Shown here one piece after another: positions 29,846-63,740 of a DNA stretch of 64,000 nt. Origin of the DNA: Incurvaria masculella. Taxonomy: Eukaryota > Arthropoda > Insecta > Lepidoptera > Incurvariidae. Position 1 is the first letter of the stretch; each line of letters starts with the position of its first letter. Under the pieces are notes generated by a model. It was not told the origin of the DNA. It was given only the letters and a program-made list of their open reading frames with translations, and did not search any database. Where the stretch lies: NCBI GenBank assembly GCA_946894095.1, contig OX335645.2, positions 14,035,001-14,099,000 on the forward strand. Direction: 5' to 3'. The translations under genes were made by a program, and so were the position numbers.

Positions 29846-29949
29846 TAAAATGTTTTGAGAGAAGATAGGCAATTTTGTGCATAACTTTGATGAATTAAGC
29901 AAGCAGGAAATAGTTTCTTGATGGTTTTTCCAGAACCTCGTTGAGTTTA

Positions 29950-31959: not shown

Positions 31960-32190
31960 ACGCTAAAACGCTTAAGTTGCGAGCTCGGGCCGAGTGAAGA
32001 GCCGGCCGACTTGACCGCCAAGCGCCAAGAATCCTTCGAGACAGTTCCTTTCCCCGTCACCTCAGACAAGGTCGACCGGACTCGTCCCGTCGCGTCGCCG
32101 CGTCGGCGGCAGCGGCGGCATGGAGTCGTCTGTCGCCTCCAGCAAGTAAAGAAAGGACGGCAGCGTAGCCACGAATTAGCGTAAATGCAA
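31960..32190. other. GC-rich islet 1.2 kb beyond the CDA1 distal 3' end
   Basis: gcgtcgccgcgtcggcggca and an end of ggacggcagcgtagccacga. No protein signature in any frame. Confidence 0.55.
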
Positions 32191-32719: not shown

Positions 32720-33085
32720 TTTTTTTTAATGTAAAGCGTACGGCAGATCCTCACCTAAAGCATCCTAAGAGGTGTCTGACAACGACGCTCCATGGGCTTT
32801 CGAAGTTATACGGGGGCTGCGAAAACCATGCCAGCCGGCGAGGTGCCACCATGTTTGAAAGACCCAGTTTATACTTTGGGGGAAATACCTCGACAGGAGT
32901 GCAATTCCATAAGACCATAAAACTCAGAAAGAGACCCTACATCTAAACGTATGTAGACCTAAGACAAGTTCTGGGATACGAAAGGGTCACCCGAGATGGA
33001 CTACAAGACAGTTATGTACGAGACCAACGGCTCGGTGCTGTATCGAGCCCAAGGAGCTAAGCAGATATGGCAGTGTTTGTAGCGT
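32720..33085 (-). repeat. LINE relic just beyond distal CDA1 3' end
   Basis: Shares gcgtacggcag...tgggctttcgaa and gctgtatcgagcccaaggag with the LINE at 48.9-49.9 kb. Heavily decayed. Confidence 0.5.
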
Positions 33086-33114
33086 AGGATTATTTTGGTG
33101 TATTTTTATCTTAT

Positions 33115-33359
33115 TTGGCATTTATTTATCTATTCAATTGAAAAGAAAAAATATAAATTACCTCAGTTTTATGGGAATTTATTTATCAAAACTGACTTAG
33201 TTCACAAATCACATAAAGTTTTAAATATATCTATTAAACATTCGTATGGATATTATATATTTTATATATTACATAGGTACTCTGAATACTAGCGGGATTT
33301 TAACCAGCGTACATAATTATTTATATATTAGGGCTGCGCGGTACGGCGGCTAAGAGAGA
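33115..33359 (-). terminator. distal CDA1 3' UTR with poly(A) signals
   Basis: AATAAA on the minus strand at 33178-33183 and 33121-33126. Long blocks align with the proximal 3' UTR, e.g. gggaatttatttatcaaaac and acataggtactc. Confidence 0.6.
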
Positions 33360-34188
33360 TCATTTCAAGCCATCTCCGGTGTGATCATTGAGCCAGGGGT
33401 AATTGGCAGGGCAACGCACGCAGGTCTGCAGGTTGATGGTCTCGCCAGGCACCTCCTTGGAGGTTAGCTTGCACGAGTGCGGTACCCAGCAAGCGGGGAT
33501 ACCCTCCACCGAGCACTTGTCCCTCCACGGCTCGAAGTTCCTCGTCTCAGCGGTCGTTTGGGGCTTCTGGATCCATTGAATGACTTGCGTCATCGTAACG
33601 AAGTAGACGTCGTTGTGGTTGGAGAGCACCTCATCGATCCAGTAGAGGAAGGCTTCAAGGAACTCGGGATTGTTGCGCAGCCAGGCGGCGTGGAAGTACA
33701 GACCGAGCGGCGCACGGTTCTGGTCGTAGTGTCGGTCGAAGTTGTGGTTGAGAAAGTTGTAGAACTGATCGCCGGTTAGAATGTTGGAGCACGAGTCCAC
33801 AATCGTGCAGCCAGTAAAAGACTCGTCATCGCTGGGGTCTTCGCTCCTGTCCAGCTCGTTCATGACCATCTCCCAGACGGCGTGACTTCGCGTGGGGCAG
33901 CTCTGCAGGTTTCCGTGGCAGCGGTGCGGCATGCGGAAGTACATGGTGTAGGGCCATAGGGGTGGGTTGGACAGCGGCGCCGTGATTGTGCTGTCGTAGA
34001 GGAAGCCCTGTTCCTCCATCATGGTGAACTGATTGTTGCCGCCGACGCGCAGGTACGGAGCACGCACACCTACCACGCTCTCGTCCGTGATGTTAGCGTA
34101 CTTCTCGATGATGGTGCGCATGCCGGCCATCTCCTTGCCCCAGTCGTCCACACTCGCGTTGCTCCAAAAGCGCTCGTCGTCGTTGAGC
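33360..34188 (-). CDS. CDA1: CDA1 distal exon 5 (metal His changed to Leu), stop codon
   Basis: 829 bases, identical in length to the proximal exon. The first full codon is CTC (Leu) where the proximal has CAC (His), so HSITH becomes HSITL. I count 14 differences over about 275 residues, six of them clustered in EDPSDDESFTGCTIV. No stops or frameshifts; it ends GDGLK and TGA. Confidence 0.9.
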
Positions 34189-37100
34189 CTGATACAAACA
34201 CATATATCAACTGTCTTATGCACAAAATCGTTATAAAACTGTAAGTTTTATGGGAAATTATAATAATATATAATATAAAATATATATGGGAAATTAATAC
34301 AGGAGGCAAAGCTTACGTGATAGAGTGGACTGCGATTTCATGGCCCTTACGGTGTGTCTCTTGCACGGCGGAGTAGTTGGTGTACTTGTGCGAAACGAAA
34401 AATGTGGCTTTGATGTCGCAACCGTTAGGGTTTTTGCGCTTTCCATTGAATATCTCCTTGTAGAGTTCGATGTTGTTGTTGTTGATGGCGGAATCGAAGG
34501 TGATGGTGATCATCTGCGGTACGTCCTTGGAAGGAAGGTCGCCGGGGATGGTGGTGCCATCCTCAGAGCAGAAGCAGTCGGGCAACGTGCACTGCGACGT
34601 GTCGCACGGCGGAGCTCGGTTTGGGTCATTGTCGTTATCTGTAACAATACAAACATATTAATCTCGATACTATTATGGTTTTATTTTTCTACATTCTATT
34701 TTATTTGATAGTGAAACTTTTTTATCTAACTGGACATGGATGGCTAATACCATACCCACCTTAATGATCTTAGCCCATTAGGCCATACATAAAAGAGGAA
34801 GGTATATATAGCAAACGTCATGCAACGTACAAAACTCGCCGAAAACTGTTTACATTCGCTGGTACTATGTGTAACCGTCATTCGACTTAGCTTAATTCCA
34901 AAATTGTCCAAATATTCTGGGAGGCCACGACATTTTTAGGAATGATAACGTAAATGGCTGAAACTGGGTTCACAGGTTAGGGACCGACCCCCCGATGCGA
35001 AATATGCCGGTCTGCCTGCCTCAAGTGGTTGCGTTAGCTATATGGCACCTGAAAATCTCGTTATCATGACCAGAAAAAAATCATAATGTAAATGGCTGAA
35101 AACAGTATGGAACGCAAGTACTAGTTGTACTCATGTGAATTACGCAAAAACTGAACAAAAATTTGGTTGCGTTATGGAGCAATGCCCATTCAAAGATGCT
35201 TTATCGTGACCGAAAAAAAATCATAATGTAAATGGCTGAAACCAGTATGGAAGGCAAGTACTAGTTGTACTCATATGAATTACGCAAAAATTGAACATAT
35301 CTTTGGTTGCATTTCCTAGCAATATGCGAATGAAGTTACATATATCACTTTAATTACATTCAAGTTTTTAATAAAATCATACCTACAGGTTATTTTTTCA
35401 TGATTAATAGGTAAGAATATTTCCAGACAAACATTTTATTCATCATTAGGTACATACCAACATAATTTTAGCATCTGTTTTAAAAGTTGAAGTACTAGAC
35501 TAAAGCTAGATTAGAGCCAAACACATTTAATTATACATTTAAAATGTATTAATAATGTCACCACGAGAACATACTTTTTTGGAGATATTTAACACATACA
35601 TAGTGCGAAATCCCAAAATGTCAGAGTTAGGCAGGCGGGGAGCGTTTGATTTGGTCCGCGCTCGAGCTAACTCTGCGCGTCGCGTCCCCTCCAGTAGATA
35701 AAATACATACAATGCGATTCGAATAAGAATAGTACAGGGCATGTTTTCTTGGCATTCCGTCATTGCGGATTCAGTAGAGTTAACAGAAGAAGAATTTACT
35801 TTGACATTACTTTGGCATTCTAGAAACCGATCGCAGCGCTACACGGAATGAGTGGCCACGGAATTAAACGTTTACCTATGTAATAATTGTTATTTGTATG
35901 GACCATGAAAACTTTGGCATTCTGGGAAGATTTTGACAGCTGCGTTAACTGATTCATTCGTGGAATAATTTCGTACTTGTTTCCGCAGCTGCAATGACAA
36001 AGGTTGCCAGGCATTCGGCTTTAGCCAGTTATGTTTGGGATTTTAGGAAACATTTTTGGAAACCATTTGCGGGTCTGGCCTGTCCGGCATTTGTTAGGCT
36101 TTTCATCGTTCGTGGTGTAACTCGTCACACGCCTGCTGGTTAAGCGGGCGAAGAAATGCAGAATGACGTCGACACGCCGACCCCAGAAAGAAGCGGCGAC
36201 TTCCTCCCCGTCCCTCCGCGGTGTCGCTACGCATTTATAAACATTACGCTATAATATTTTGGCAAACGAAACTAGACCTGTCGAAGCGGACCAAATTGGC
36301 ATGATAAGTTATGATAATTCTTAAGTCGCAGATTTTTTTACAGGCGATGTAGTTTCCTTATGGAAGGTTGGGTGCAAAAGATTAGAAAATTCTGATTGGT
36401 GCGTTTGAAATTATTTAGGTATTTTCAATAATTCGAACTAAAAGATTGAATATAATATTTAAGTCAAATTTTATGATTGTATATTGCTTAAAACTTTATT
36501 TCCATGTGTTTAGAAAAAGTTTAGAAAAATTCCGTTTTGGGAACATAGCAAAACAAAAAATCGCTCATTATAATTACAATAAAATATTGAAGTCTCTAAA
36601 TTATTGTTATGTAAACATTAGAACCTCTTATAAAAAGGTTATATAAATATTTCTAATCTTTTGTATGCCGATACAGTGTTTCGATATGGTCATGTTGCCG
36701 CCGACTCTAATAACTTAAATATTTTATTGATTGAATTAATGATAAAAACATAAATAACTTTGAAAGCCAACTACATAGATTTCTAAACTTTTTATAGGAG
36801 GTTATAATGTTCATTCCTAATATGGAAAATAATAATTTAGAGACTTAAATATTTTATTGTAATTATAATGAGCGATTTTTTGTTTTGCTATGTTCCCAAA
36901 AAGGAATTTTTCTAAACTTTTTCTTACGACATGGAAATAAAGTTTTAAGCAATATACAATCATAAAATTTGACTTAAATATTTTATTCAATCTTTTAGAT
37001 AGAATTATTGAAAATACCTAAATAATTTCAAACGCACCAATCAGAATTTTCTAATCTTTTGCACCCAACCTTCCATAAGGATACTACATCGCCTGTAAAA

Positions 37101-40100
37101 AAATCTGCGACTTTAGAATTATCGAACCCTTTATTGCTCTAGCTGCTGGGCTAAACGTTAGAATAAGAAGATGTTAATAGTTCATAATATATCCTCACGG
37201 CCACTGTTCCGTTAGTTACTTACTTTTAGAATTGAAACTTCAGTGAGGTTCACCATAAGCAGTAAACAAACACAGAATAAGCTAAAATACAAATCTTCGA
37301 TGAGTCGAATCTCCGAGTCGTGTTTGTTTTCGTGCGCTACCATTCGTCAGCAGCTTAGAGCGAGCACTTCTATTACTGAAAAACAGAAAGAGATAGCATA
37401 TTCGTTTCCGTATGCGATTCAGTAAATGCCGCAGGAATAGGTCGGAAGTAATTAACTGATTCAGCTATGATTCAGTAAAGTGTTTACATAAGTTTGGCTA
37501 GAATGCACCACCAGGGCTCGTGACTAACTTCACTCGAATTTGCTCGCAAAAGTACGATCGGCACGTCCAGACGCTTCAATATCAAAGGAACCCTGACGAT
37601 TTTTTTCATGCAACAGAATCGAGGTGTGATCCGAGTATGTGCATGTACATGCGTTTTCGTTTTTTTATTGTGTAGCGTTTCTGCCTGGCCGTGACAGCGA
37701 CACTAGACAAAACACAAATCGTAGTGTAGGATGACATTGAGTGCCATTCACAGAATATGCAGTTAAATAAGTGGGCTGTACTTTGGATTTTCGGTTATTA
37801 CTTAGTTACATATTTGTTATATAAGTTAACTTAAGTTGCCGGTAAACTTAGCATATATTTTCCAAGAAGTTTTTAGGCGTTAGCTGGTTCGATCGTAAAA
37901 TAATATGTATCATAAAACTGTAGGTCCCCTTCCTTACTTACTAGGTGGTAGGGTTAATCACACCCGGGTTGGTACCATCGCATTGAATGAACGATGGTAG
38001 AAGCGGCAATGAAAATTGTCCGTGTTATCCATCCAGTTCAATGTAGCTGAGCAATATAAGGAAGGTCCTGGCATGGCACCTCGTTACCATGTGGTGTGTA
38101 AGGATAATGTCTGACGGTCAGTCAGCCATCCATGTCCAGTTACATAAAAAATTGCCAAGTGCGAGTCGGGCTCGCACACGAAGGGTTCCGTACCATCGTA
38201 CAAGATGTAACACAAAAAATAACGTGTTTTGTATGGCATCCCCCTTTGATTATTATTATATTTTTATTTAACCTATTTGTTGTTATAGCGGCAAAATAAA
38301 TACACACTCTGTGAAAATTTCAGCTGCCTACCTATTACGGTTCATGAGATAGAGCCCTGCGACAGACGGCCGGACGGACGGACGGACGGACGGACGGACG
38401 GACGGACAGCGGAGGCTTAGTAATAGGGTTCCGTTTTCACCCTTTGGTTACGGAACCCTAAAAACGATCGAATGCTCTCTTCCATCTCATCAGAACAAGA
38501 ACAAAGGCTAGTCAACGGAACCCCATATACCGCATGTGTAAAATTTACAATGAAGGGAAAGAAAATATGACATTTTTAACGACTCCAATGCTAAATTTAT
38601 GAAATTTGTTAAAGCCAAATATAAAAGTTAAGTAACTTATTGGTTCGCCAATAATTGCATTTATCTCCTGTGGGTATATGTGTACTGTATTTGGTTCTTG
38701 TTTTGTTTGGTTTATTGATCACATATATTTTAGTGAGAAATATTAAGGAAATAGGCTTTTATTATAGTTGCTTATATTTTACTTTTTCATTTTGCCTATT
38801 CCGGTTTTTTCTCCAAAATAAAAAAAAATAACACTGACCCGTCGGGACCCTATGTTAGTAAAATAATACATAAATCATATTAACTTATAACCGATGCATA
38901 ATTAATTACACACGGTTTTATAGCCTTCACCACGAATACTCGTATGGTGTGTTACTTCGTCGGTGTTTAGAGTTGTATAACCCCTTGCTTGCTGCGTTAT
39001 GCTCTTAGATCAATCGATTTATTGTTATCATATGTATCATCATCGGATCATTTGGCTCATATTAAAATCTGCAAACGCGTCATGAGCAGAGGTACGTTAA
39101 AATGAAGCCATAACCACAGAATGTATATAGGATTACATCCAGTAGCTCAACTCCATACAAAGTCCCGATGTTGTGCACCTATACAGGCACATTATAAACA
39201 AGGCTCTAAGCTAGTTTCGCGGTGCTGAACTGTCGCGAATGGTCCTTCGAAGTCATCTTTTTAAAGGTAACAGATCCAGCAGTGCTCCGCAAATATTTAA
39301 GTGACAACCCCGAGACTCGATGGAGGGAAGGTATTTATCTCAAAAATCGCCTGAGTTGAGCTACTGCTGTAGCCACAGTCACACAGCTATATATTTACTG
39401 TGCCATAACGGCTCAGTCACGTATCAACTGGCCAAGTGGCATTATTTATAAGGTAATGATAAAATATGACAAATCCGAGTGCAGTGTGCTGCCTATAGAT
39501 AATGAATAAACATAAAAGGCTGCCCGTAATTCGAATTCAACGTAAAACTGTAGGTCCCCACTCACTGGGTACCACGGTCAATAATGCCCGGTTGGGCTAC
39601 GCAACAAATCGATTGGTCAAAACGGCAGTAAAAATTGTGTGTAATTTTCCACGAATTAAAAAGGTATTTTCCATCCAGTTCGCTGCGCTGTGCAATATAA
39701 GGAAGGTCTTGGCATGACCCCTAGTTCCCATGAGGTCACATATGATGACGGTAGGTGTGGCATAAACCATCATTCAGAAACGTATCGCACCGTAAGATTA
39801 TAACTTTTTAGCACAATCGAAGGCGGTGGCGAATGGCGACAGCGTGTGGGTAGAGTGTAGAGAAGAGAGTGAAAGCAGTGAAAGCAGTATACAGCGGCAG
39901 CCGCCTCCGCGCCGCCGCCGCCTCCGCCGCCGCCAGCGGCACCGGCGGCGGCGCGACGACCGCGGCGCCGCAGTGCCGCGTCGACGCCGCCGATGCCGCC
40001 GATGCCGCCTCCGCCGCGCCAACATCACGAGCGGTTCACGGGCCGAGCCTCGCACTCAAACGCCGCTTATTTGCGTTGCATTCCACCGCCGTTCCATAAT

Positions 40101-43100
40101 ATTATAAGTGAAGTCTACAGTTTCGATAATACATTTAAAACCACTTTGCCGAATAGACGTTTGTATCTAATATCGTTTAATCAATATCTGTGTCTACACG
40201 TTTTTGTTTCGTATATTTTGTGGTTGGGCAAAGTGACGAAAGGTCTTAAGGGCCTACATTTTGATATAGAAACACCCATTATTTACCTACAAAGAGTCGC
40301 GCAGCTTTCCTCAGGAGAAATTAGTTTTCTACATGAAAATATGTCCGGTTTAATAAAAAAATGCCTAATATTTATTTTATATTTCCTTTGAGATAAAGTT
40401 TTTCTCTTAAATGACTGAGTTAAAATCAGCTTGATTTTTCATTTTAATTTAAGGGCGTCATAACACCTTATTGCAATTTTGTTCTATAAGGGCGTTAGTG
40501 AAAGCATATTTTATTATTTTTAATAATAACTGCTACTTATTTTGAAAATCAAAAGAAGATGAAAAATGCATTGATGGTCTAGCTCTATTTGAAACCTATA
40601 ACGGTAAATATTGGCCGCTCATATGCTGTGTTCAACATTTTTTTTATGAAAATGTATAAACATTTGCCAAAAAGCACCAGCAACCTACAGTTTTATATTT
40701 AAATTATACCTAGAATATTTATTTACATGTTCACTTTTTGGATTATCGAAATTGGTTGTGGTTATTTTAATAATAATTAAATTATGTTTTTCTTGCGTCG
40801 TTAGCAAACTGAACGCCATCGGCTCTTAACAGGCCCTTAAACATTTAATTTTACAGTAAGTAAAAAACTTTGATAACATTTAAAAACATAGACGACTACG
40901 TAATAGACTAGGAGGTCGCGACAAAAATGGTAACATGTGAACCCAGATTCAGCCATTTACCTTATCGTGACCAAAAATGTCGTGACCTCCCGGAATATAA
41001 TGGTTAAATTAAGTTGTTGCCATAATATACACTAAATATGTTTATAAAATGGAGGAGGAAATAAGTTTCCCTTTTTGTATAGGCCGGTACGTAAAGTGTA
41101 CCCTCTTAACAAAGGAGAATTTTGTGACATATGAATCTCATCGATCATTAGCAGACAACACTTTATTGAAGACATTTTATTGCGGGGAGCGGCGCAGGCG
41201 CAGAACACGATTCAAAAGCTTGCGCAAAAGCGCGGGGAGTATTGTAAATGTCGCAGAGCCGACATTTTGTCTTAGGCCGTCGCAATCAAGTTGCACAAAT
41301 ACATTTATTGATGACGACGCAACTGTCGAGAGGCACCGTGTTGCAAAGTGCGCGGGAGTTTCGGCCCTGTGGCGTGTACTATCTGTGGTCCGACTCGAAA
41401 GGGTTGAGAAATTATTCAATTCTCGCAGACGAAATGAACATTTCGAATTCTTGGTCATTGTGTAATAGTACCTCTATATTAGTAAGCTGATATATATGTT
41501 ACTCAGAATAAAGAAACGATTATCGGATTACGGACTACATTATAATAAGAACACGGACACTACACCATTGCGTTTGAATAATTTCACCAAAATGTTCAGT
41601 GACTGTTTCAATGTATTCCGTTGGTTCGATATCAAAGACTCCGATTTCGGTGGTAATATCATCCTTATGGCAACGGTAGGTCGATCTTGGCTCGAAAAAC
41701 GAAAAATATAAACAACGAAAAAAGGGAGTAAAAATGTCAAAGAAGTGTGCTGTGAAGCTCGAATGTCCCTTTATTATTATATATCTCCCGAATGGAAGAA
41801 ACGTGATAATATGCACCTAATATATACCATACCTATATATATATAATATATAATATATACCTACTTAGAAGATTAAATGCAGCCATCTCGACATTGTCCA
41901 TTCACCGTGTACTTGCAATGGCATCGATGCAATAGGAATGCATTTAAAGTATTTATTAGCTTCTTAGAGTTAGTTACACTCATTACCTACTAATTGACTA
42001 TTGTAAAGTAACCACACACCTACGCACATTCTAAGTGGTTTCTATAAAGCAGTAATTCATTAAATCATCGTAGCCTTGTATAAATGAACAGTAAGTGAGC
42101 AGTGGATGCTTGATATATTGCGTGCGTATGACCGAGTGTATTATGCACGCAGTTCATTTAAGATGCAGTTCTCACTGGTGCAAACCCAGAAGAGGAATGG
42201 AAAAGCGAGCCTTGGCAGAACTCGTTATTCGGGTCGAGTATCATACCACAGAGGCTTTACGGATGTATCGAAGCAAAATTATGTTATTGAATAGCTCTTA
42301 TTGTAGCGTACCGAGTGTGTAAATAAATTCGATGTATTTTTATCTTTTTTGGCATTTTGCTTTTTTTATTTGCTGGTTTTAAGGAAAAGTCATGATATCA
42401 GTTTTTTGGGAATTTATTTATCAAAACAGACTTAGTTCATTAAATCACATAAAGTATTGAATAGACCTATTAAGCTTTTATGTGTGTCTATATTACATAG
42501 GTACTTAGACTACTAGCGGGATTGTGACCCGTTACATAATTATTTATAAATTAGGGCTGAGCGGCCCGCCGGCGGAGGGAGATCATTTGAAGCCATCGCC
42601 AGTGTGATCGTTGAGCCAGGGGTAATTGGCAGGGCAACGCACGCAGGTCTGTAGGTTGATGGTCTCGCCGGGCACCTCCTTGGAGGTCAGCTTGCACGAG
42701 TGCGGCACCCAACACGCGGGAATACCCTCCACCGAGCACTTGTCCCTCCATGGCTCGAAGTTCCTCGTCTCGGCGATCGTGCGGGGTTTCTGGATCCATT
42801 GGATGACTTGCGTCATGGTAACGAAGTAGACATCGTTGTGGTTGGAGAGCACCTCATCGATCCAGTAGAGGAAGGCGTCAAGGAACTCGGGGTTGTTGCG
42901 CAGCCAGGCTGCGTGGAAGTAAAGACCGAGCGGCGCGCGGTTTTGGTCGTAGTGCCGGTCGAAGTTATGGTTGAGGAAGTTGTAGAACTGGTCGCCGGTT
43001 AGAATGTTGGAGCACGAGTCGACCATCGCGCAGCCGGGAATCGACTCATCGTTCGTAGGGTCCTCGCGCCTGTCCAGCTCGTTCATGACCATCTCCCAGA

Positions 43101-46100
43101 CGGCGTGGCTGCGAGTAGGGCAGCTCTGCAGGTTTCCGTGGCAGCGGTGCGGCATGCGGAAGTACATGGTGTAGGGCCACAGCGGTGGGTTGGACAGTGG
43201 CGCCGTGATAGTGCTGTCGTAGAGGAAGCCCTGTTCCTCCATCATGGTGAACTGATTGTTGCCGCCGACACGCAGGTACGGAGCACGCACACCTACCACG
43301 CTCTCGTCCGTGACGTTGGCGTATTTCTCGATGATGGTGCGCATGCCGGCCATCTCCTTGCCCCAGTCGTCAACGGTCGCGTTGCTCCAGAAGCGCTCGT
43401 CGTCGTTGTGCCTGAAACAAACACATATATCAACTCTCTTATGCACAAAATCGTTATTAAATGTTTGCTTTCAAGAATAGGGCAAGCATGAATAGCTGAA
43501 AAAATTCGGGTAGTTAAACGGGAGGCAAAGGCTTACGTGATCGAGTGGACTGCGATCTCGTGTCCTTTGCGGTGCGTTTCTTGCACCGCGGAGTAGTTGG
43601 TGTACTTGTGCGAAACGAAATATGTGGCTTTGATGTCGCAACCGTTAGGGTTTTTGCGCTTCCCATTGAATATCTCTTTATAGAGTTCGATGTTGTTATT
43701 GTTGATGGCGTCATCGAAGGTGATGGTGATCATCTGCGGCACGTCCTTGGAAGGAAGGTCGCCGGGGATGGTGGTGCCGTCCTCGGAGCAGAAGCAGTCG
43801 GGCAACGTGCACTGCGACGTGTCGCACGGCGGAGCTCGGTTAGGGTCATTGTCGATATCTGAAACAATACAAGCATCTTTATCTTGATACTATTTTGCTA
43901 TATTTTTTCAAGATTCTTTTTTATTTCTAATGAATATCATTGGCTGTGAGAGTATTTAAATATAACTGGACATGGATGGCTAATACCACACCCACCGTCA
44001 TGATATTAGCCCAACGCACCGTATTTCTGAATGAACTGTCAGGACCATTACTTTATGATGATACTTTAGATGAAAGTGAATTGGATGGAAAATACGAACA
44101 ATTGCCGCTTCGACCATCTAAAATTTAATGCGTTGGTACCAACCCGGGTGGGCTTAACCCTATTACCTAGTAGGGAAAGGGAACCTAAAGTTTTAGATGA
44201 ATTCCGAACCATGGAGCAGCTCGTATTGGTGGCAATAAAAAAAAACATGGACCGGACGATCCATGGACGAGGTGGGGATCGAAACCCATATCCTTCACAT
44301 GGAAAGCAAGTGCCCACGCCCCAGATCAACGAAAAACAAAAATTTTGCGAACCTATCCGAAACCGGGTCTAACCCAGGATGAGTGATTTCAAAATAACCG
44401 AGTGTGTGCTTACAGAGTCAAGTTAGTGCAAGATCAAGTTCCGGCAGCGGCTGAAGGTCGAGCGATTGAAAGTGAGAGCCGGACGCTCACTCACTACTTT
44501 CGCCGTCAGCTGAGCGCCGAAAATGTAGCTACAACCATCGCACCGCCCCCGCACCACACTGCCGGCCCGCCGCCTCCACCCCGACGCGCCCGCGCACCCG
44601 GCGCGACGTGCCGATCATTCCTCGACGCAATTTCACTTTGGGCCTAGGCGACACACGGTGTGCCGGCTGGTATGCTAATCATTAAAGGCAATCGATCACT
44701 GTAAGCTTAACCTTCTAGGTTAGAACGATTCTTTGTCGGAATTCGACGGCAATAAATGTAGAAAACCGAGCTCGGTCGCCGCCACCGACTTCACCGGTTC
44801 ACGTGAAACTTGAAAATCCACAGTTGCCAAATTCAAGAACGGACGTCGAGTTATTAGTTTAATTAACAACTAACGAACTAGCGCAGCGATGTCGTCACGC
44901 TAGAAAAGATTGGGCATTTTTTAATGCTCGTATCTGTTATTATTCGAAGTTAGCGTTGGACAAACGTGCCCTAGTGGATGTCCAGTTACAAGCATATGTA
45001 TGATGCATTTAGGTATGTAAGTGGACATGAACGTGAACTATTGCTGACGATAGGAACGAGACACACAATATTGATCTAGTTCTTCCTGTCGAATCAGTCA
45101 CTTGTATTTGTGAAGCAGATCGGCTTAGCGTTGCGACACATCGACGCTCTACCACTTAACAACCTGTCCATTGGAATCAGCATTGTGATAATTGATGGAA
45201 CCTATTTAAGTTGCTCCATTAAGTTGCTCAACATACGTATATTTAAATGTTCCTTCAACTACGAAGTTGCTTAAGTTTACTTGCTAGCTTTTTCAGACAT
45301 CGTTCTTGTTATGGTAAACAATGCAATTAAAAGTCATGTCAGTGTAAATGTGCAGCTGTGAATATCTGAGAATGTTCTCGGCGGATGCGGAGGTTTCGGT
45401 GGAAAGGTTGGCGCGGGGGTGAGCGGGGGCCGCTGACGCCCGCAGCATGCATAACTTCTTCACGACACAATAACGCATTCCATTGCACACATGCAATCAT
45501 TTTCAAAGCTTGTAGCTTTCAACATAACTTTAAGGAAATTCTTCATGAATTCATCATAAGTTATTGGATATTTTTAAAACTTCCCTAAAGCTGTCAGTTA
45601 ACTTAAATTGGTCTTATAGTAGTGATGTAATTTCAGATTCTAAGCCCAAGAGCTCAAAACGATGACCAGATATATGTATATGATTATGTAAGAGGACAGA
45701 TGCATTGTTGAATCTGTGCTTGACCATGTGCATGTGTCCGGGTTGGATGTATAGACTAGTAGTTAGTAACTTTTAGCTTGGACAAAAAGTCGGAAAGGAA
45801 ATATTCTCACACAGTCGGAACTAGCAGTATGTAGCCGCGAGCGAACCCGCACAGCACGCAACACACTTGCGTGACGAGATGCCCACGTAACCACGTGTAA
45901 TGCTTGATATAACTTAAATAATTCTTAACACAATTGTTTCTTAGTGAGAAATATTGATAAAATACATTGGGTATATTCAGTAAGATACAAGTAAGCTGTA
46001 ATGCAGATACTTAGTATCAATAAATACTCATGCCATTGTTCGGGTTGCCGAGGTCTTAACTAGGTGGTAGCGTTTATCCCGCCCAGGTTAGTATCATTGC

Positions 46101-49100: not shown

Positions 49101-52100
49101 GTGTTTGGTTTCTAAGTTATAAGATCCGAAAGTTCGCATTTTTCGCGCGTTTTATACAATAACTTTGGAGGTGGATTAGGCAATGATAAAGTAAGAACAT
49201 CTTAAAAAGGTTAGTCATCAGACATAGCTTATTTAATCTAGATTTATAATCTATTTGGTTTTTGTTTGATTTTTTAATACAGCGGTCGTGGTTGACTTTT
49301 AGCTATAAGTCGTTTTGAAATTAAAATTTTCGTAAATCTTACCAAATCATACACTATGCACATTGTCTTTTTTGTGGACATATTGCATCTTCCTCATCAC
49401 GGAGCCTGTCTTATTCTTTGAAACAGAGAAGGTTCCAGAGCGCAACAGCACGGTTTTGTACCGTGCCCGCGAATGAGCTAGGCCCGCCGGGTTAGGCCAC
49501 CTTAAGGGGGCCGCGTAGAAAGGGGACGGAGGGACAGCGTTATGCAGCTCCGATGAACATTCTTCATGGTAAAGACGGTAGAACACAGAGAGAGACTCCT
49601 TCGGAGTTGGAGGGTCTCTAAATTCATAGACACCTTGGGGTCGTCGACGAGACGCACGGCCCGACGCTGTATCGAGTCCAGGGAGCCACGCAGGTGCTAA
49701 GCTGAGCCGTCTCACAAATGCGAACAGTACTCCACGCAAGACCTTATCTGCGCCTTGCAAAGGAGCAATTTTTGGTCAGGCGTGTAATACTGACGCACTC
49801 TGTTGAGAACTCCCAGCTTTTTCAAGGCTAACTTTGATTTATCCTCGATATGGCGTCCGAAATTAAGGTCAGGTGGACACCAAGAATGCCTAAATGCTCG
49901 TCAAGATAGAAGTATAGAGCAAGAGAGATAATCTGTCATAGAATCGTATAAAATTACTTCTGTACTATTCCTTCTTTACACACGAATATATTTTCCAGTT
50001 TCAGTTCAACCGGCAGTTAAGAAAAAAACATCAACCAAAAAATTTTTTTATTTTACTTTTTAATAAAGAGTGCAATCGAGAGGGCAAACCACTGCTGAGC
50101 CACTGCTGTATATAAATCAGTCCTAATCCACCCACGATAATCAATTTAAATTTCTAGAATTGCGTTGAGAGCTATTGGTTGAAATTATTGATGGTTTATG
50201 TGGTTAATATTAAAGTTTTATTTGTTTAATTAACGGTAATACATAATATTCGTTGCAAAAAGCTACGTTCTTTCTTAGTAAAAACAATGCATCTATATTT
50301 AGTTTTTGAAAACAAATACATTCGCAGAGGAGCTAACCAACCGCCTGTAAGTCAGGAAGGGGACTTACAGTTTACGTGGAAGCCGAACCTAGAACAAAGA
50401 ATTTCTTAGTCCTCTCTTATAAAATGCGCGGGAACGTCGGTACAGTAACAGGTAAAGTACAAATCAGTCAAACTAACACGACAACTGGCTCGGAACTCGA
50501 TCCCCCTCCCGCTGCCTCGCGCGGAGCCCCGAAGTCGTCAGCCAGTAACGATAGCATCACGGTTACCGTTGCACGTGTCTTTGCGTTTTACAATTTCCGA
50601 GCTTCCAGCTTCGAGCTTTGTTTTCCAGGTGTCATGTTAACTCGCCGTATTTGTAGGAAAGAGTGGAGCACTGACCGCAGGAGTTCTCGTCGGATCCGTC
50701 CGTGCAGTCCTTCTCGCCGTTGCAGAACAGGCCCCGCTCGACGCAGCTGGTATCCCCGCAGGCCAGGAAGCCCTCCTGGCAGATGGGCTCGTCCGTGTAC
50801 AGCAGGGGCTTCACCTTTCGCTCCTTGTTCTTTAGCTTGCAGTTCTTCACGGCGTCCTTCCAGTCGCACGTCTGCTTCTCTATGTCGAAGAACAGGCCGG
50901 CCGGGCAGCGGATCGCTTGGATGCCCTGACGACATTACAAAACATTATTGCTATGAAACTGGCAACAAGCGGTGTTCATTTAATTTGTTGACATAGTTAA
51001 AATACTATTTCAAGCAAAATATCGCTTTATTTACATTACTTGAACAATATTTACATAATTACATATTTATTAGTAGAGCACGAAAGGGTTCGAAAATTAA
51101 AGAGAACTTTTTAACTTTTCACCCATACAGAGCAAACAAAAGACATTAGACGAGATGTGATTTTCAAAAATTGATGTCTTTAGTTTCCCGTCATCAGGAA
51201 AACTGAAATATATTAATTATGATATGGAAAAATATGTAGAAACAAACTACGTTTGTTTCATAGAGGAACGTTCAAGTTGACACCGCTTTTTACCCATACA
51301 AGAATGGATATACTCCTTTTGCCCACTTTTTTATTCGTTCGTTTTGTTTGACTTCGCTAAACACGAAATTGCCAAAATTGATAAAACATATTTGTTATAT
51401 CACGAGTACGTTATTTGTTTGATGAAAAAGCAACCGAACCTAGTGTATAGGATTTTTACGATTTCTCTAATAAAGATTAATCTAGTTATTAGAATATGGT
51501 CGTTGGGAGCGATTATTGAACAGGGTTTCAGGATAACTATAAAACTGTAACATTAGCCACAGTCAGAGATGAAAATGCATGGTAAAACGTGGAAACTAGG
51601 AAACAACTAGCTCTGGTACCCGACTCCGTCGATGTCGGATTGAGTTTCTCAACAATAAAAAGTATACCATGTATTAATCGACGATATTATCTATCGACAC
51701 ACATACATACATTCAAACATAAGTTTTTCCCAATTTAAAGACAATATTAGTGAGATGTGGGATGCATTCAGCCTGCGTACCGGTTCAAAACTGAACTTCA
51801 TTGATCTGGCTGCGAGCATAATAGATGGGTTATTAAAACCATAATATATTGATTGATTATTTCATTTTACGGTAAGGACATGATCTCACTTTGGTTTAAC
51901 AAAACTTTGGTCACACAAAGTTTATAGAGATATTCTGGATAGAATAACCAATTATTTACGATTTGCAACATTCCAACCGGCTGCGGTGCGGAGACACCTT
52001 ACGACACTGCTCGGCTGCGCCGCGCCACCGTTTCCGCGTCAGCTAGCTAAAGCTTGGTGTCGTGTCGAGTAGAAGCGAGCCGTAACGAGTCGAGTCGAGC

Positions 52101-55100: not shown

Positions 55101-58100
55101 TTAACAACCATACAGGTTATCTAACACCGTAAATTAATATTTCTTTGTTGAATTTTAAGACAATCTGCAGGTTTGTACATAGATTATAAATGCTTACATA
55201 ATTATCTATACAAAACATATGCATGCGTTTTCTAGCCTCGTTAGTATTGGAAGGTCTTAAAATTTTGGTATTCCTCGGCAACAAGATGCACGGCACTATA
55301 CATAGAAACTAAGGAGGCAGGGTCATATTTAAACGAACAAAGTTTTTTTTTGACTTTGTGCAGTGCACGGTTTGATATCATGGGAGCAGTGTTGCCTGAG
55401 ATGAATTAAATAATGTATCCTTGTCCTGGTACAATGTTCCCTCAGATCAAAGGAGAAGATGTAAACTAAGGATGTACATATATAGCGCGCCTACTATGAG
55501 AGCCGTTGCCTCCAATTTTCTTAAACTACCTTATCCCAACTTAAACGAACATGCCGCACGCAGACATAGTCGCAGACATATTGAAGAGTTTATGTGCGTT
55601 AACTGACTTAGCTTACTTAGCATTTCGGGAGCATAATCACGGAAGTTGGCGATGTTTTGACAAAGTAGCATAATACACGGGACGACTTCCTATACATGGC
55701 GGAGCCACAAGTAACGACGGCATTTCACTTCTTTTTGCTCTTCTGACCCTGTCCCAGAATCTCTTCTCGTGAACTTATTTATCTAATTAGATAACGTGTT
55801 TTACCAACTTTCGTTTCAATTCATTTATTTATTCAACTTCTGGCAGTCAAACTACTGTCACAATTTGATTGATCCGCGGATTCGATCAATTTAGTGAAGA
55901 AGAACCCGCAAAGAAACTTCACTGGTCTATACGTTATGTTTTTTTTTCGTTCACATTAATGATATAAGACAATTATGTTTTCATACCTAAATTATACTCC
56001 CAAACTTACATTGGTAGAACCGTCTAAAGCAAAGAACTAAGAATTACGAGAAAACAATAACCCTCAATGTGAAAAGTCTTAAATTATAAATTACTTAAAC
56101 CTAATAACTACAGCAACTGCAGTTGCCTCAATTGTCTGCGATGAACGGAACAATTCACCTGCATCCTCGCCCTTGAGCAGCCTGCTTCAAAATATGTCTC
56201 TCTCTCTCTCGTGTAGCTTTTGATGCAATTTGAGGAAGTGTTCAACTCACGGATGCGGTGCACTGGATGACGTCACGGCAGTTGTCCCCGTCGCCCGCGA
56301 TGAGCCGGAACCACTCTCCCGCGTCTTTGTCCTTGCACAGCTCCTGCTCCAAGCTCTCTTCCTTCTTGGGCGCTTCCTCAGCCTGCCGCCTATACCTGTG
56401 TGCCTCCGCTGAAACAATAACATTCGAAACATTATTTACCGAAAATAAAAGGAGTTTAAGCCAACGACATGTTTTTAATACCATTTTTCTTAGTGGCTGC
56501 GTACCATTATAATTTTGTTTATAAAAAACGGGAAACTTCAATGGTGACCTGACAATTAGAATAAGCGAGTTCTTTAGATAAGATACAATTTACTTATATT
56601 AAAGATGATGTTCGACTTAGTAAAGTGTGTTGTTTTAATTGAATTGATTTGATTAATTTAATAAGGAAAGAAGCAGGCATAGAAACATCAACTATGACAT
56701 TTTAATCGATGCAGAGAAAGTTATTATAATGCAAATTCTGCCAAGTTAGGCTGACGTGAGGAGACGTAAAAATGTGATTTTGCGCCACCACGTGATGTAA
56801 ACGTGAAGCAACGAATAAACTAAATGTCAAAGGTAAACAAAATGGAACCAAGCTGTGTGCATGATCTCCCGACCTCCGTGCCACGCCGAACATCAAATGC
56901 CAAGCATACATTAAATGGCAAACTGCTATCTAAATGAAGACCTTGAATTTACATTTTTGTAGCATAGAAGCAATTTATAATAGTCATTTTAAATAAAGAA
57001 AGCTATGTGTGACATATTACGAAGATAAATGATCAATTTGCTTTATGCACATACGTTGGTAGATATATCAATCCGTACGTTTAGGTACATAAGCCCATTT
57101 TGCCTACAAGAATAAGGCTTGTTCAGTAGGCCTATTCTTTAAAATCCGTGCTCAGGTATCAACAATATTTAAGTCAAGAAAACAGCTTTTATAGCGGTTG
57201 TCAAAGAGATTTTATCGACGGAAAGTTTCCGGAGCACGGTATTTCAATGATTCATGGATAAATCGCTTTCAAAAAAGGGATTTATCGACTGAACGATTCC
57301 TAATTCCTGAGCACAGAATTCCAAGAGCATGTCCATAAGCTAGTGACCTAGTTTGTAGATATGCTCTAGGTCGCAAATGAGGGCGTGATAGCACTTGATT
57401 GCATTCAGTTTCATAACGGCGTAAATAAAACTATATTTTATTATTTTTAAAAATAACTACTACCTATTGTGTAGTAAAAAGACGACAGATGCATTGCAGA
57501 CTTACAGTTTTAGCTTAAAATTTAAGCTAAGATGATATTTACTTCTTGGATTATTGAAATTCATTGTTGTTATATGTAAATATCATTAAATGTCATTTTC
57601 CTTACATCCTTATGAAATTTAGCGCAATCGGCTCTCATCACGCTCTTAAGGAAAATACCTTCCGAACGGTTTTGAGGAGTACTAGATCGGGTCCAACCAC
57701 TGAAGAGAAAGTTACAACAATATAGCACGGATATAACAAGATTAATTTATTTATACAAGCGATCATGTGGTACTGAGACCTATCAAACAAAATAAGAAAG
57801 TGCTTTCGTACTATTACCTAAGCCATGCAAAAATATGGTTATAATAAATGATTTCATAGCTACTGAGCTCAAAAAGCGACGAATCCTAATGATATTGAGC
57901 AGTCATTAAATGAAAATTAATTGATTAAGGAAAGTATAGATTCATAGCAATAAAATGTATTGTTTGCATACAAATAACATTCCCTTAACGACAATATTTA
58001 ACCAAGTGGTTGGCATGGTTAAGAGGTAACTATTTTGGAATTAATCATTGCTCATTACTTGGAAATAATGGCTATAAAACCTATGCACAACACTCACATG

Positions 58101-61100: not shown

Positions 61101-63740
61101 AAAATGGACCGTTAGCAAAACGCGATTTTCACTCTGCAAATGGCAAAGCGGTTATTTCATACCGACTACTCGTTTAACATAACCAAAAAATCTCTGCTAT
61201 GAATAACCGAGTCACGGTTGCTATTAGCAGATTATACTATAAGCTGTATCGTAACCAATTTATTCGTTTGTCAATAACAACTATACGGTTGCATTTAACG
61301 GTTGCGTTTTCTCAGTGTGTTTTATGACTTGCGAAAATTTGTACTATCGGACAGTTGAGTTCACATACGACGTTCTTACGCGTCGTTGCTACCCAAGAAA
61401 ATGCGTTAAATCTAACTCTCTCGCCGGCCCTGCCGATTTTGTGTAGAGTGGCGCCCTCATACAAACGAGTTTCGGTCGCTACTATCGTCCTACCATGCTC
61501 GTTAGTACTAGCCGACTATCAGGATATTGGGATGGATTTTATTCTCAAAGGAAGCGGTACGGTTAGGGAATCCATCCTAGATAATTTGTGCGCATCCATT
61601 TGCCTCACGAATAAACGGAAATTAAAGCAAAAAGTATTCAAACGCGCCTTTAGTATGGTATTGGCCCAAGGTACTAATCTTAGAATAATAACGCATTATT
61701 TTAATAAATGCCTAGGCTTATGCCTAAGCTACTAATTTAATTGATTAGGCGTTATTAATTTAAGCTACTAATATTATAATGGATAAGTGTGTTTGTTGGC
61801 TTGCCTCAACGGAATAGAGATAATAGTTTATAGGCCGACGAGTGACATAGACTACATTAAAAAAAACCTGCTAAGTGCGAGTCACACTCGCACACAAAGG
61901 GTTCCCTACCATCGTACAAGATTTAACAGAAAAAATGACGTTTTTTGTATGCCCCTCCTTTAATTTTTTTTATTGCACCTATTTGATGTTATAGCGGCAA
62001 AATAAATACACTCTCTGTGAAAATTTCAGCTACCTACCTATTACGTTTCATGAGATACAGTCCTGTGACGGGTGGAAGGATGGACGGATGGACGGACGGA
62101 CAGCGGTGGCTTAGTAATAAGGTTCCGTTTTGTACCTTTTGGGTACGGAGCCCTTAAAAAACTTTACTGAGCAGCGCCAGTTAGGGTAGTAAGTACAGAA
62201 TAAATTCAATATTTCGCTAGTTTCTCATTCACCTTTAACTGCAACTATGATACCATATATGATGGGAGTAATTTATAATTGTTTACTAAATGAATAATGC
62301 GGCAACTGTTTTAATAAATCCAGAACCGTTAAATTAAAACATTATTACTATTTTGTTTAATTTGGCTTTAGATTTTTTTCCAATGGTATTTCTTGCCCAT
62401 TGATAAATGAAACATTAATAAAAATGAATACTTAATTCACATGTACATTCTAATGAGTCAAGCTCTCTTAATCCATTAGTATAGGTAATGAGTATCTCTT
62501 CATTATTAAACTTGTAGAGTATAAAGAGTATGTGTACGTATAGAGCATGTGATGGTAGAGCCTGATTAACTTTTTCTGATAAGTTTCAAAAATTAGATAT
62601 AAATGCTTCAATGTAGATGTCGCTGTATGACTTCAAATGAATGAGATAACGGTAATATCGTATGCATTTAATACTTAAGAAAATAAAAATAATTGATTAA
62701 AAAAGGCTTCTTGCAATATTATGCAGATGAACTGGTGAAAGTCATCTGATTCCGGTGCATCCAGCTTTTCGTATATGTATATAGGTAGATTTAATTATGA
62801 TTGAATATATATGGACACAAAATAATTATTAGACGTACTATATAATATTAAACCCAGTAAAAATACAAGTAAATAAAGGATAGAAGGGCAATCAAGGTTA
62901 TATATACACAATTATCAAAATAATGAATGGGTCTCTGACAAAAAAATTGGTTAATTTTTTTTAAAAGTCATAACAATTATATCAAAGGTCAAATTGATCG
63001 TAAAGGTATGACAGGTACGTAATATTGTTATGTAAATATGTCAATGATATTGATTACATACGTACACCAAAATGTGAAAGTATCGGTAGGTATGTAAGTG
63101 TCAAACGGTTAGCATGTTCCGTGGTGAGAGGAGGCTGCGTGTTGTGCTATACTATTAACACATCTGTTGCTAACTAATAGTTCCGTATAAAGACGAATAA
63201 AATTAACAATACACATTTGTACTTTTCTATTATCGACTAGACCCCAAGATGAATTTGCAATAAAAATGAAAGAAATGATTTTATCAAAAAGGTTTTCTTG
63301 TTGACAATGCGTTGATGTCTTTTTGCAGAGGGCTCTCGCGGAGGTGGATGCGGCGGCGTCTGCGCATGCGACAGGCGGGGCGGGCGGTAGAGGGGAGAGG
63401 AGGTATCAATGCACGTGGAATAACAATGATTTCTAAAATAATCGACTAGTCACTAGTCTGTAAGATCAGGAATGCTGTCAACTAGGCGGCGCCGGGTACA
63501 CTTAAAATACAAGCACTCATCTCGAATGACGCCGCGACGCCTCGCGCCAAACGAAACAACTTCACTGTAATCACTCGATGGCGACACTTTCTCGTCGGGT
63601 GAAGTGCGCGGGCGGGGGGCGAGGGGCGAGGGGCGAGGGGCTCGAGGTGCGCTGCGTGAGGGTCGTTAAGAGGGATGGGACTCACCGGTGGCGAACAAGA
63701 GGCACGCGGCCAGCGTGGCGACGCGGGCGTAGCGCACCAT
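33360..63740 (-). CDS. CDA1: chitin deacetylase 1 (serpentine type) with two alternative terminal exon pairs
   Basis: Shared exons 63686-63740, 56251-56408 and 50676-50925 join either the proximal pair 43537-43858 + 42583-43411 or the distal pair 34317-34638 + 33360-34188. Both routes give exactly 537 residues with every junction in phase. Order: signal peptide (1-19), chitin-binding peritrophin-A domain (43-100), LDLa (120-154), CE4 deacetylase (about 195-390) and conserved C-terminus. Signature phrases CKDKDAGEWFRLIAGDGDNC, CDWKDAVKNC and NDPNRAPPCDTSQC identify CDA1/serpentine, a secreted chitin N-deacetylase of cuticle and trachea. The proximal route has metal ligands D204, H259 and H263 (TFDD, HSITH). 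The distal route has S204 and L263. Each pair has its own homologous 3' UTR with AATAAA-type signals, so the choice looks like alternative last exons. CDA2 follows downstream in the same orientation. The gene identity is certain; use of the distal pair is inferred. Confidence 0.95.
34317..34638 (-). CDS. CDA1: CDA1 distal exon 4 (metal Asp changed to Ser)
   Basis: 322 bases, the same length and phase as the proximal exon, with acceptor TGTTACAG and donor GTAAGC intact. From the DCFC region onward only two residues differ over 90: TFDD becomes TFDS (GAC to TCC, two base changes) and TYFV becomes TFFV. Confidence 0.9.
34725..34790 (-). repeat. SINE tail next to distal CDA1 exon 4
   Basis: aactggacatggatggctaa and taccatacccacc, about 90 bases from the exon 4 acceptor. 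The equivalent place by the proximal exon has a fuller copy. Confidence 0.7.
34915..35330. repeat. about 140-bp tandem repeat, two good units and one decayed
   Basis: tcataatgtaaatggctgaa starts at 35081 and 35221 (spacing 140). A third, older unit starts near 34945 (gataacgtaaatggctgaaa). Confidence 0.85.
36313..37124. repeat. 812-bp imperfect palindrome (foldback)
   Basis: Left arm from ataattcttaagtcgcagat (36313) is mirrored by the right arm ending gcgactttagaattat (37124). Arms are about 320 bases and similar throughout, with a loop of about 150 bases near 36650-36790. Open frames inside are incidental. Confidence 0.92.
37905..38145 (+). mobile_element. SINE fragment
   Basis: Plus-strand body: actgtaggtcccc, acccgggttggtaccatcgc, aaggaaggtcctggcatggc, catccatgtccagtt tail. 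The tRNA head is missing. Confidence 0.75.
38146..38462 (+). mobile_element. lepidopteran GACG-containing repeat, copy 1
   Basis: Runs from agtgcgagtcgggctcgcac through a (GACG)n run (about 38370-38407) to ttacggaaccctaaaa. Same layout as the copies at 54.3 and 61.9 kb. Confidence 0.85.
38370..38408. repeat. (GACG)n microsatellite
   Basis: About nine tandem GGAC units inside the repeat above. Confidence 0.95.
39540..39775 (+). mobile_element. SINE fragment
   Basis: Contains cgtaaaactgtaggtcccca, aaggaaggtcttggcatgac and atgatgacggtaggtgtggc. Head absent. Confidence 0.7.
39885..40025. repeat. GCC/CCG trinucleotide-rich islet
   Basis: Dense imperfect gccgcc, ctccgcc and gccgat repeats in AT-rich CDA1 intron 3 downstream of the proximal pair. 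Open frames here are low-complexity. Confidence 0.8.
40911..40990. repeat. 80-bp terminal-inverted-repeat element
   Basis: ggaggtcgcgac at the left and gtcgtgacctcc at the right. The interior (aacccagattcagccattta) matches the 34.95 kb repeat in reverse. Confidence 0.65.
42361..42582 (-). terminator. proximal CDA1 3' UTR with poly(A) signals
   Basis: AATAAA on the minus strand appears at 42413-42418 and 42365-42370, 165-218 bases past the stop. The sequence is homologous to the distal 3' UTR. Confidence 0.6.
42583..43411 (-). CDS. CDA1: CDA1 proximal exon 5 (catalytic-competent), stop codon
   Basis: The first full codon is His (CAC), completing HSITH. It then has RAPYLRVGGNNQF, DSTITAPLSNPPLWPYTMYF, LGLYFHAAW and a C-terminus ending HTGDGFK and TGA. 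All CE4 motifs are present. Confidence 0.95.
43537..43858 (-). CDS. CDA1: CDA1 proximal exon 4 (catalytic-competent)
   Basis: It codes DIDNDPNRAPPCDTSQC, CFCSEDGTTIPGD, QMITITFDDAINNNN and HEIAVHSIT. It contains the general base and metal Asp of CE4 motif 1 and the first His of motif 2. Acceptor TTTCAG, donor GTAAGC. Confidence 0.95.
43965..44330 (-). mobile_element. tRNA-derived SINE, near full length
   Basis: Tail aactggacatggatggctaa near 43965. The head near 44260-44330 has a B-box-like GGTTTCGATCCCC on the minus strand. Confidence 0.75.
44440..44640. other. GC-rich islet in CDA1 intron
   Basis: CpG-dense stretch (gaccgctca type, ccgcccccgc and ccgacgcgcccgcgcacccg) about 0.6 kb upstream of the proximal exon 4. 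No coding signature. Confidence 0.55.
44650..46040. other. CDA1 intron 3, no gene seen
   Basis: AT-rich intron with a small GC islet at about 45380-45450. Confidence 0.5.
46040..46500 (+). mobile_element. SINE-related repeat
   Basis: gtaagaggcgaccaaaggat, then gtggttcagattccac and a decayed body ending acaagccatcaatgtcta. Similar to 60240-60585. Confidence 0.6.
47046..47533. repeat. 488-bp foldback element
   Basis: Left arm attccgagtcaatg... ttctcaggagaggaattaac... tggtaatcgattggagcgcc is mirrored by the right arm ending ggctcggaattcg. Arms are about 140 bases around a loop of about 200. Confidence 0.85.
48525..48840 (-). mobile_element. SINE with 5S rRNA-like head
   Basis: The body and tail match the tRNA-SINE family. 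The minus-strand head includes CCGAAGTTAAGCAACGCTGG and CTTGGATGGGTGACC, resembling the internal promoter of 5S rRNA. Confidence 0.75.
48860..49930 (-). mobile_element. LINE relic interrupted by MITE A copy 3
   Basis: Left part 48880-48956 (gcgtacgccagggcctctta, atgagctttcgaac) continues at 49506 (gggggccgcgtagaaagggg). The minus strand codes YRLYHEECSSELHNAVPPSP and other LINE RT C-terminal phrases. Confidence 0.75.
48957..49505 (+). mobile_element. MITE family A, copy 3
   Basis: 549 bases bounded by TTAA. Ends GGTGGCCCATCCCGC and GGGTTAGGCCACC. Confidence 0.9.
50330..50400. repeat. SINE fragment
   Basis: ggggacttacagtttacgtg then gaagccgaacctag, the SINE body phrase, about 280 bases past CDA1 exon 3. 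Confidence 0.5.
50676..50925 (-). CDS. CDA1: CDA1 exon 3, second half of chitin-binding domain and LDLa
   Basis: It codes GIQAIRCPAGLFFDIEKQTC, DWKDAVKNC and then CQEGFLACGDTSCVERGLFC to GSDENSC, ending TGC G before a GTCAGT donor. A single CBD half here contrasts with the 3a/3b pair of CDA2. The last base needs AT from the next exon to make Asp, and both downstream pairs supply it. Confidence 0.95.
50930..52370. other. CDA1 intron 2, left part
   Basis: No gene seen. GC-rich islet at 51970-52110 (gctgcgccgcgccaccg, cgagtcgagtcgagcc). Confidence 0.5.
52373..52525. repeat. foldback element
   Basis: AATATCTGTGTCTGCATGC at the left pairs with GCATGCAGACACAGATATT at the right. A single-arm relative is near 40180. 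Confidence 0.85.
52760..53303 (+). mobile_element. MITE family A, copy 4
   Basis: 544 bases, TTAA on both sides, with ends GGTGGCCCATCCCGC and GGGTTGGGCCACC. Confidence 0.9.
53309..53442. repeat. foldback element
   Basis: tctcactttgt and gtaaaaaatacccgt at the left pair with acgggtattttttaac and acaaagtgaga at the right, around gatatca/tgatatc. Confidence 0.85.
54285..54597 (+). mobile_element. lepidopteran GACG-containing repeat, copy 2
   Basis: gacgaagggttccgtaccat, a short GACG run near 54515-54540, and ttgggtacggaaccctaaaa. Confidence 0.85.
56196..56215. repeat. (TC)n microsatellite near CDA1 exon 2 donor
   Basis: tctctctctctctc, read as GA repeats in the transcript about 35-55 bases after the exon 2 donor. 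Confidence 0.85.
56251..56408 (-). CDS. CDA1: CDA1 exon 2, linker and first half of chitin-binding domain
   Basis: It codes EAHRYRRQAEEAPKKEESLE, then QELCKDKDAGEWFRLIAGDG and DNCRDVIQCTAS, phase 1 to 0. The acceptor is TTGTTTCAG, the donor GTGAGT. A (TC)n run lies about 35 bases past the donor. Confidence 0.95.
57124..57334. mobile_element. foldback MITE family B, decayed copy
   Basis: cagtaggcctattct at the left, gaaaacagcttttatagcgg inside, and cctgagcacagaattcc at the right. Confidence 0.65.
58805..58905 (+). repeat. SINE fragment
   Basis: gtgcataaggaaagtctagg, tcatgtcatgaaagtaggtg and attagtcatccattcc. Confidence 0.6.
59245..59465 (+). repeat. RTE-like LINE tail fragment
   Basis: ctagccaaagtgcccggctt and cactcggcccgattta, a phrase shared with the fragment at 22.0 kb and with RTE-like tails. 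Confidence 0.5.
59911..60120. mobile_element. foldback MITE family B, copy
   Basis: GCAGGCTTATTCCTGGAATT at the left and a mirrored aggaataggcctgc at the right. Confidence 0.85.
60240..60585 (+). mobile_element. SINE fragment
   Basis: cgtaagagccgactaaggga, gtggttcggattcaaag, tgcccgggttggtacccacg, tataaggaaggtcc and a ccatctaggtccagtcaca tail. Confidence 0.7.
60700..60980. other. GC-rich islet in CDA1 intron 1
   Basis: CpG-dense stretch ending ggcggcagcatagtcacgag. Its end resembles that of the islet at 31.96-32.19 kb. Confidence 0.55.
61858..62158 (+). mobile_element. lepidopteran GACG-containing repeat, copy 3
   Basis: aagtgcgagtcacactcgca to ttttgggtacggagccctta, with a degenerate GACG run near 62080-62100. 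Confidence 0.82.
63686..63740 (-). CDS. CDA1: CDA1 exon 1, signal peptide
   Basis: ATG at 63740-63738. It codes MVRYARVATLAACLLFAT plus one base, then a GTGAGT donor. Classic signal peptide; the first codon of exon 2 completes Ala. Same 18-codon plus one design as CDA2. Confidence 0.9.

Follow-up and report, generated by a model that had tools for sequence, protein, structure and literature searches.

Within the window analysed here, that is, the whole stretch of 64,000 nucleotides from the moth Incurvaria masculella, we found two neighbouring group I chitin deacetylase genes on the minus strand, CDA1 upstream and CDA2 downstream, and a second copy of the terminal exons 4 and 5 of CDA1 with replacements at two of the three zinc ligands. 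This distal copy lies about 8 kb beyond the proximal pair and has its own stop codon and AATAAA signal. The reading that we consider best, with a probability of roughly 0.62, is that the distal exons would form an alternative 3'-terminal exon pair through which a zinc-less CDA1 variant is kept. The new element is that the zinc site is lost within CDA1 itself, in a duplicate terminal exon pair; no description of a zinc-less alternative CDA1 was met in the titles, opening lines of abstracts and passages surveyed in open PubMed Central.

Structure of CDA1 and its two terminal exon pairs

CDA1 (serpentine) has five exons, which run from 63740 to 42583 on the minus strand. Exon 1 (63686..63740), located by a signal-exon scan and by a tblastn search with the N-terminal part of P0001 from Parnassius, encodes the signal peptide (MVRYARVATLAACLLFAT) and has the donor GTGAG; exon 2 (56251..56408), recognised by homology and delimited by its splice sites, begins the chitin-binding domain; and exon 3 (50676..50925), also recognised by homology, encodes the rest of the CBM14 domain and the LDLa domain and ends with TGC G in phase 1, at the donor that both terminal pairs would share. 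Proximal exon 4 (4P, 43537..43858, 322 bases) contains TFDD, and proximal exon 5 (5P, 42583..43411, 829 bases) completes HSITH, ends with GDGFK and a stop and is followed by AATAAA at 42418. On the same minus strand, distal exon 4 (4D, 34317..34638, 322 bases) contains TFDS, and distal exon 5 (5D, 33360..34188, 829 bases) contains HSITL, has TIVDS in motif 4, ends with GDGLK and a stop and is followed by AATAAA at 33183. Both copies of exon 4 were defined by reading the sequence and comparing the copies. Exon lengths and phases are equal in the two pairs, and 4P and 4D both accept the phase 1 in which exon 3 ends. The group I domain set (signal peptide, CBM14, LDLa, CE4) is present by homology in CDA1 exons 1 to 5, and the distal form has this full set only if exon 3 joins 4D.

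The proximal copy matched the Bombyx mori BmCDA1 structures 5zns/5znt along the catalytic domain (E 8.9e-260), which is nearly identical to the solved one. Bombyx mori was the best match in the structure search, and Parnassius mnemosyne (93%) was the best among the matches listed for the proximal catalytic domain; for the full distal isoform the best outside match among those listed was P0001 of Parnassius (90%). When the proximal exon 5 domain was searched as a protein query against the 552-Mb assembly (31 contigs), 19 matches were obtained, of which the strong ones were the proximal copy (100%), the distal copy (96%) and the CDA2 of the window (60%); only these three exceeded 82 bits, and the fourth-best match reached 81 bits.

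Changes in the zinc site and catalytic motifs

In BmCDA1 the zinc is held by D206, H261 and H265, the catalytic base is D205, supported by R306, and motif 4 reads AMVDS (passages of PMC6463723), which agrees with the assignment of the metal ligands to the second Asp of TFDD and the two His of HxxxH in the first-pass annotation. The triad D206/H261/H265 is D, H, H in the proximal copy and S, H, L in the distal copy. Direct reading of the codons bore out the contrast between TFDD/HSITH and TFDS/HSITL: the distal copy has TCC (Ser) at 34490..34492 in place of GAC (43712-43710 in the proximal copy), which took two base changes, and CTC (Leu) at 34185..34187 in place of CAC (43410-43408), which took one. 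As had been noted, the second change opens exon 5, since base 34188 completes the preceding Thr codon and the Leu codon occupies 34187-34185; the interval given earlier, 34188..34500, leaves this codon three bases outside.

All five published motifs are intact in the proximal copy. The distal copy retains D205, H261, R306 and the cleft residue Y242, and its motif 4 is TIVDS versus AMVDS (A392T and M393I, both distal-derived). In BmCDA1 numbering, the 17 replacement differences between the copies are I158N, D206S, Y236F, H265L, T276S, V297I, R379S, T383S, N384D, I388F, P389T, A392T, M393I, D442E, R474Q, I476T and F538L, and seven of them fall within the 15 residues 379-393, which adjoin or lie in motif 4. 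With polarity taken from the 14 first-listed homologues and BmCDA1, 12 were assigned to the distal branch (less surely for I158N, I476T and F538L), two to the proximal branch (V297I, D442E) and three to neither (Y236F, T383S, I388F). Exon 4 has 17 silent codon differences, one replacement before the DCFC motif (I158N) and two after it (D206S, Y236F), the latter exactly as claimed in the earlier annotation. Both copies score above the cut-off (23.1 bits) of the CE4 profile PF01522 of Pfam, the distal copy with 31.3 bits and the proximal copy with 36.3 bits, and no match to this profile was found in the CDA2 of the window up to E 0.1.

Because CE4 catalysis is metal-assisted (PMC6463723, passages), we predict that the distal form is non-catalytic. 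The earlier proposal of a non-catalytic isoform stands as regards the ligand losses and an open, in-phase and constrained copy; the inactivity itself is a prediction from sequence. A distal product that is still an enzyme, through another metal site or another activity, would fit with the retention of the catalytic base D205 and of R306 and H261, and is very improbable in our estimation, because motif 4 is altered as well and, in the CE4 geometry as known, Ser and Leu would not be expected to take over zinc binding from Asp and His.

The loss of both ligands is hard to ascribe to chance, as had been supposed. With changes placed at random over the 383 residues, 12 to 17 of them would include two of the three zinc ligands with P 0.003 to 0.005, a value that is post hoc because the sites had been picked by the earlier reader. 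The five published motifs comprise 22 residues, and 4/12 distal-derived changes lay within these (P 0.003), or 4/17 when all differences were counted (P 0.012). Moreover, four of 103 invariant positions were changed (D206, H265, R379, M393), that is 3/12 in motifs versus 1/91 outside (Fisher P 0.005), a weak and partly circular test because the 108 homologues behind it were chosen for D205, D206, H261 and H265, a choice that by itself makes two of the four changed positions invariant; among the unselected 14 first-listed homologues, D206 was retained in 13 and H265 in 14. Judged from these comparisons, it looks as though the active site was relieved of constraint while the remainder of the fold stayed under it.

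Constraint on the distal copy

Over 383 codons (1151 coding bases, equal lengths), the two copies have 60 silent and 17 replacement differences, and no frameshift, indel or internal stop was found in the distal coding exons. Between the copies, dN and dS were 0.021 and 0.329 by NG86, 0.019 and 0.302 by LWL85, and 0.019 and 0.503 by YN00, and 36/155 fourfold sites differed. We ran 60 neutral simulations to 30 silent codons (half of the 60), which assumes that the silent changes are split evenly between the branches. At this point a mean of 113 replacements (minimum 48) had accumulated, stops averaged 5.6 per run and 0/60 runs were free of them, compared with about 12 replacements observed on the distal branch. 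Since the distal copy has so few replacements, no stop and no indel against this simulation, selection must have maintained its protein through most of the period after the duplication, and on this sequence comparison it is not a simple pseudogene.

Two sequences do not reveal whether this strong constraint acted before or after the ligand loss, so that a recent release from selection is compatible with these values. The main rival explanation, which we regard as unlikely, supposes that the distal module was long active (as an alternative or separate copy) and was released only recently, and that it is now an early pseudogene whose ligand losses are the first signs of decay. The excess of about 12 distal replacements versus two proximal ones (three unassigned) would be expected under such decay, and a brief neutral spell late on that branch would suffice to produce them, as 10 silent codons were accompanied in the simulation by a mean of 33 replacements (minimum 8). 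Against this, random loss would rarely strike two of three zinc ligands in 12 changes (a post hoc P of 0.003), two bases changed in the D206 codon, stops and frameshifts are absent, and the intron end and the poly(A) region are still alike in the two copies.

The duplicated block

The distal duplicated block (33099..34777, minus strand) is 87% identical over 1701 columns to 42333-44013 in the alignment of the copies and takes in the exon 4 acceptor, both exons, the intron, the 3' region and the poly(A) signal; the 3' regions with their AATAAA signals are still alignable. When 40000-48000 was compared with 28000-38500 on the same strand, one 1.7-kb block and three matches of 52 to 106 columns were common to both. 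An assembly artefact or false duplication was considered and judged unlikely, because the copies differ at 83/1151 coding bases, lie about 8 kb apart and share just this block and the three short matches. Gene conversion was also considered; the longest identical coding run is 62 bases, which is ordinary (P 0.57), and the run-length test gave no sign of it.

In its middle part the intron can scarcely be aligned between the copies, yet its end before exon 5 is nearly identical: 34189..34234 (minus strand) matches 43412-43457 at 44 of 46 bases, and these two differences correspond to P 0.0006 against the fourfold rate, for a segment picked post hoc. It is possible that this conserved intron end is a splicing element. 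At the upstream edges of the block, a 25-base sequence is present at 34727-34751 and 43963-43987 (minus strand), with a third near match at 28653-28677 (plus strand), where GGTATTAGCCATCCATGTCCAGTTA is matched partially, with 3 mismatches. This third near match within the window points to a dispersed repeat as the probable origin of the block's upstream edge.

Proposed alternative terminal exon pair

The phases fit, and no first exon of the kind sought was found between the copies, so that we take an alternative terminal exon pair as the simplest reading. We propose that exon 3 would join 4P and then 5P to give the ordinary zinc enzyme, or would skip the 1.3-kb proximal module and join 4D and then 5D to give a zinc-less form of the same length, which would keep the signal peptide, the chitin-binding domain, the LDLa domain and the CE4 fold. 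We infer that the distal pair is transcribed and spliced and that its product is secreted and inactive. Both distal acceptors carry A for T near the CAG (TTACAG and TATCAG, versus TTTCAG twice in the proximal pair) and may be weaker for that reason.

A first exon for the distal copy was sought on the minus strand of 34700-42330 as an ATG followed by a hydrophobic stretch and a phase-1 donor of at least 7/9, and 0 candidates were found (mean 0.16 in shuffled sequences), a scan that other kinds of first exon, for example non-coding ones, would escape. In a control scan of 56300-64000 with a donor score of at least 6, the one candidate was CDA1 exon 1, whose donor score of 8 passes both thresholds. 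These results bear on the explanation that the distal exons are part of an independent transcript, which would have a promoter and a first exon to itself and would lack a chitin-binding domain, as group V CDAs do. Silkworm CDAs with the CDA domain only are described in passages of PMC6480692, and the roughly 8 kb between the copies leaves room for a promoter. Nevertheless, we hold such a transcript to be improbable, since the signal-peptide exon scan, in which one kind of first exon was covered, gave no candidate and the retained phase-1 acceptor of 4D suits exon 3.

The joining of 4P to 5D is in frame with a terminal stop alone, and the joining of 4P to 4D is out of frame. The real distal product could accordingly be a mixed 4P-5D form (TFDD with HSITL) that has lost one ligand and leaves 4D unused. 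To this we give hardly any weight, because 4D is as well preserved as 5D (dN between copies 0.016 versus 0.023, NG86), which would be unexpected for an unused exon.

Under the preferred reading of a complete 4D-5D pair, the zinc-less form would bind chitin and the partners of CDA1, such as CPAP3-A1, without deacetylating, and could act as a scaffold or a competitor. According to passages of PMC6463723, BmCDA1 alone has no detectable activity and is activated by moulting fluid or by CPAP3-A1, which also pulls it down. The zinc-less form thus has a potential partner, because BmCDA1 is both activated and pulled down by CPAP3-A1. More tentatively, the two pairs may constitute a splicing switch, in which one set of 5' exons would yield the enzyme or, in its place, a zinc-less form of full length that occupies chitin and CPAP3-A1/Obst-A, and the ratio of the two would set the extent of deacetylation.

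Zinc-site states among homologues

We examined 139 representative proteins, which were the best listed of 640 and 1158 matches in a collection clustered at 90% identity. The residues D205/D206/H261/H265 were present in 108/139 and N, G, F, H in 15/139, and the other states were NGHH (4), DSNH (3), NGFQ (3), DGHH, DDQK, SGFN and SGFS (1 each) and gaps (2). Given these several distinct states and the TFNG/FSLTH of CDA2, the group shows more than one kind of zinc-site loss. Both D206 and H265 were replaced in 5/139, which are 55 to 64% identical and bear crustacean names where named; these five are not near relatives of moth CDA1, in a collection whose clustering at 90% hides near members. Lepidopteran CDA1 appears there as one representative, P0001, with 170 members. 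A representative of a lepidopteran distal form was found neither among the best 120 of 640 matches (proximal catalytic domain as query) nor among the best 120 of 1158 (full distal isoform as query), and scans of prokaryote and viral contigs yielded no relative. P0081, P0082 and P0083, which are group I CDA-like and about 71-72% identical to the proximal copy, have SFDS and NSITH; they share the Asp to Ser change and represent another lost-ligand combination.

Comparison with CDA2 and other known systems

CDA2 (vermiform) adjoins CDA1 at 11531-15848 on the minus strand and reads TFNG instead of TFDD and FSLTH instead of HSxxH, a state that is also found in matches named Glossina, Schistocerca, Dendroctonus and Bactrocera. 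It resembles the distal form in being a group I CDA with a broken zinc site, and its chitin-binding and LDLa exons are present in the window. The two differ in the residues concerned: of D205, D206, H261 and H265, only H265 remains in the CDA2 of the window, whereas D205 and H261 remain in distal CDA1 and D206 and H265 are gone. Further, CDA2 is a gene of its own with 60% identity in the exon 5 domain, whereas the distal module is 96% identical to CDA1 and would share its 5' exons. Two candidate alternative chitin-binding exons of CDA2, which resemble the CDA2a/CDA2b arrangement, were also observed at 15459-15289 and 15125-14985 (minus strand, coordinates of the tblastn matches).

Alternative splicing has been described for other CDAs. 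In passages of PMC9632012, the known isoforms are those of CDA2 and CDA5 and a psyllid CDA1 variant with a 24-base exon, and CDA2a/CDA2b arise from an alternative exon 3 in a group I CDA; passages of PMC6480692 give two spliced forms each for BmCDA2 and BmCDA3 and none for BmCDA1. In CDA2a/CDA2b one exon is alternative, and the candidate CDA2 pair in the window encodes the chitin-binding region, in contrast to the CDA1 pair, which encodes the catalytic domain and is terminal with its own stop. In PxCDA3/CHBE of Podosphaera xanthii, splicing yields a chitin-binding form without most of the deacetylase activity domain (PMC9605236). The proposed distal form would resemble it as a chitin-binding form obtained from a CDA gene by splicing; PxCDA3/CHBE is fungal and truncated, whereas distal CDA1 keeps the whole domain with the zinc site and motif 4 changed. 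BmCDA1 (5ZNS, 5ZNT) corresponds in gene, domain order and fold, and differs from the distal copy in having D206, H265 and AMVDS, in place of which the distal copy has TIVDS and lacks both ligands.

Biological meaning

Whether a group I CDA acts through deacetylation or as a chitin-organising matrix protein is hard to test, because removal of the gene abolishes both. If the preferred reading of an alternative terminal exon pair is true, nearly identical catalytic and zinc-less forms chosen by terminal exons would be a natural experiment in which each form is separately removable, and one cuticle-modifying enzyme gene would also yield a form that binds chitin and is unable to change it. If the more tentative splicing switch is true as well, a non-catalytic group I CDA would have evolved inside the CDA1 gene, adjoining a CDA2 that itself looks non-catalytic.
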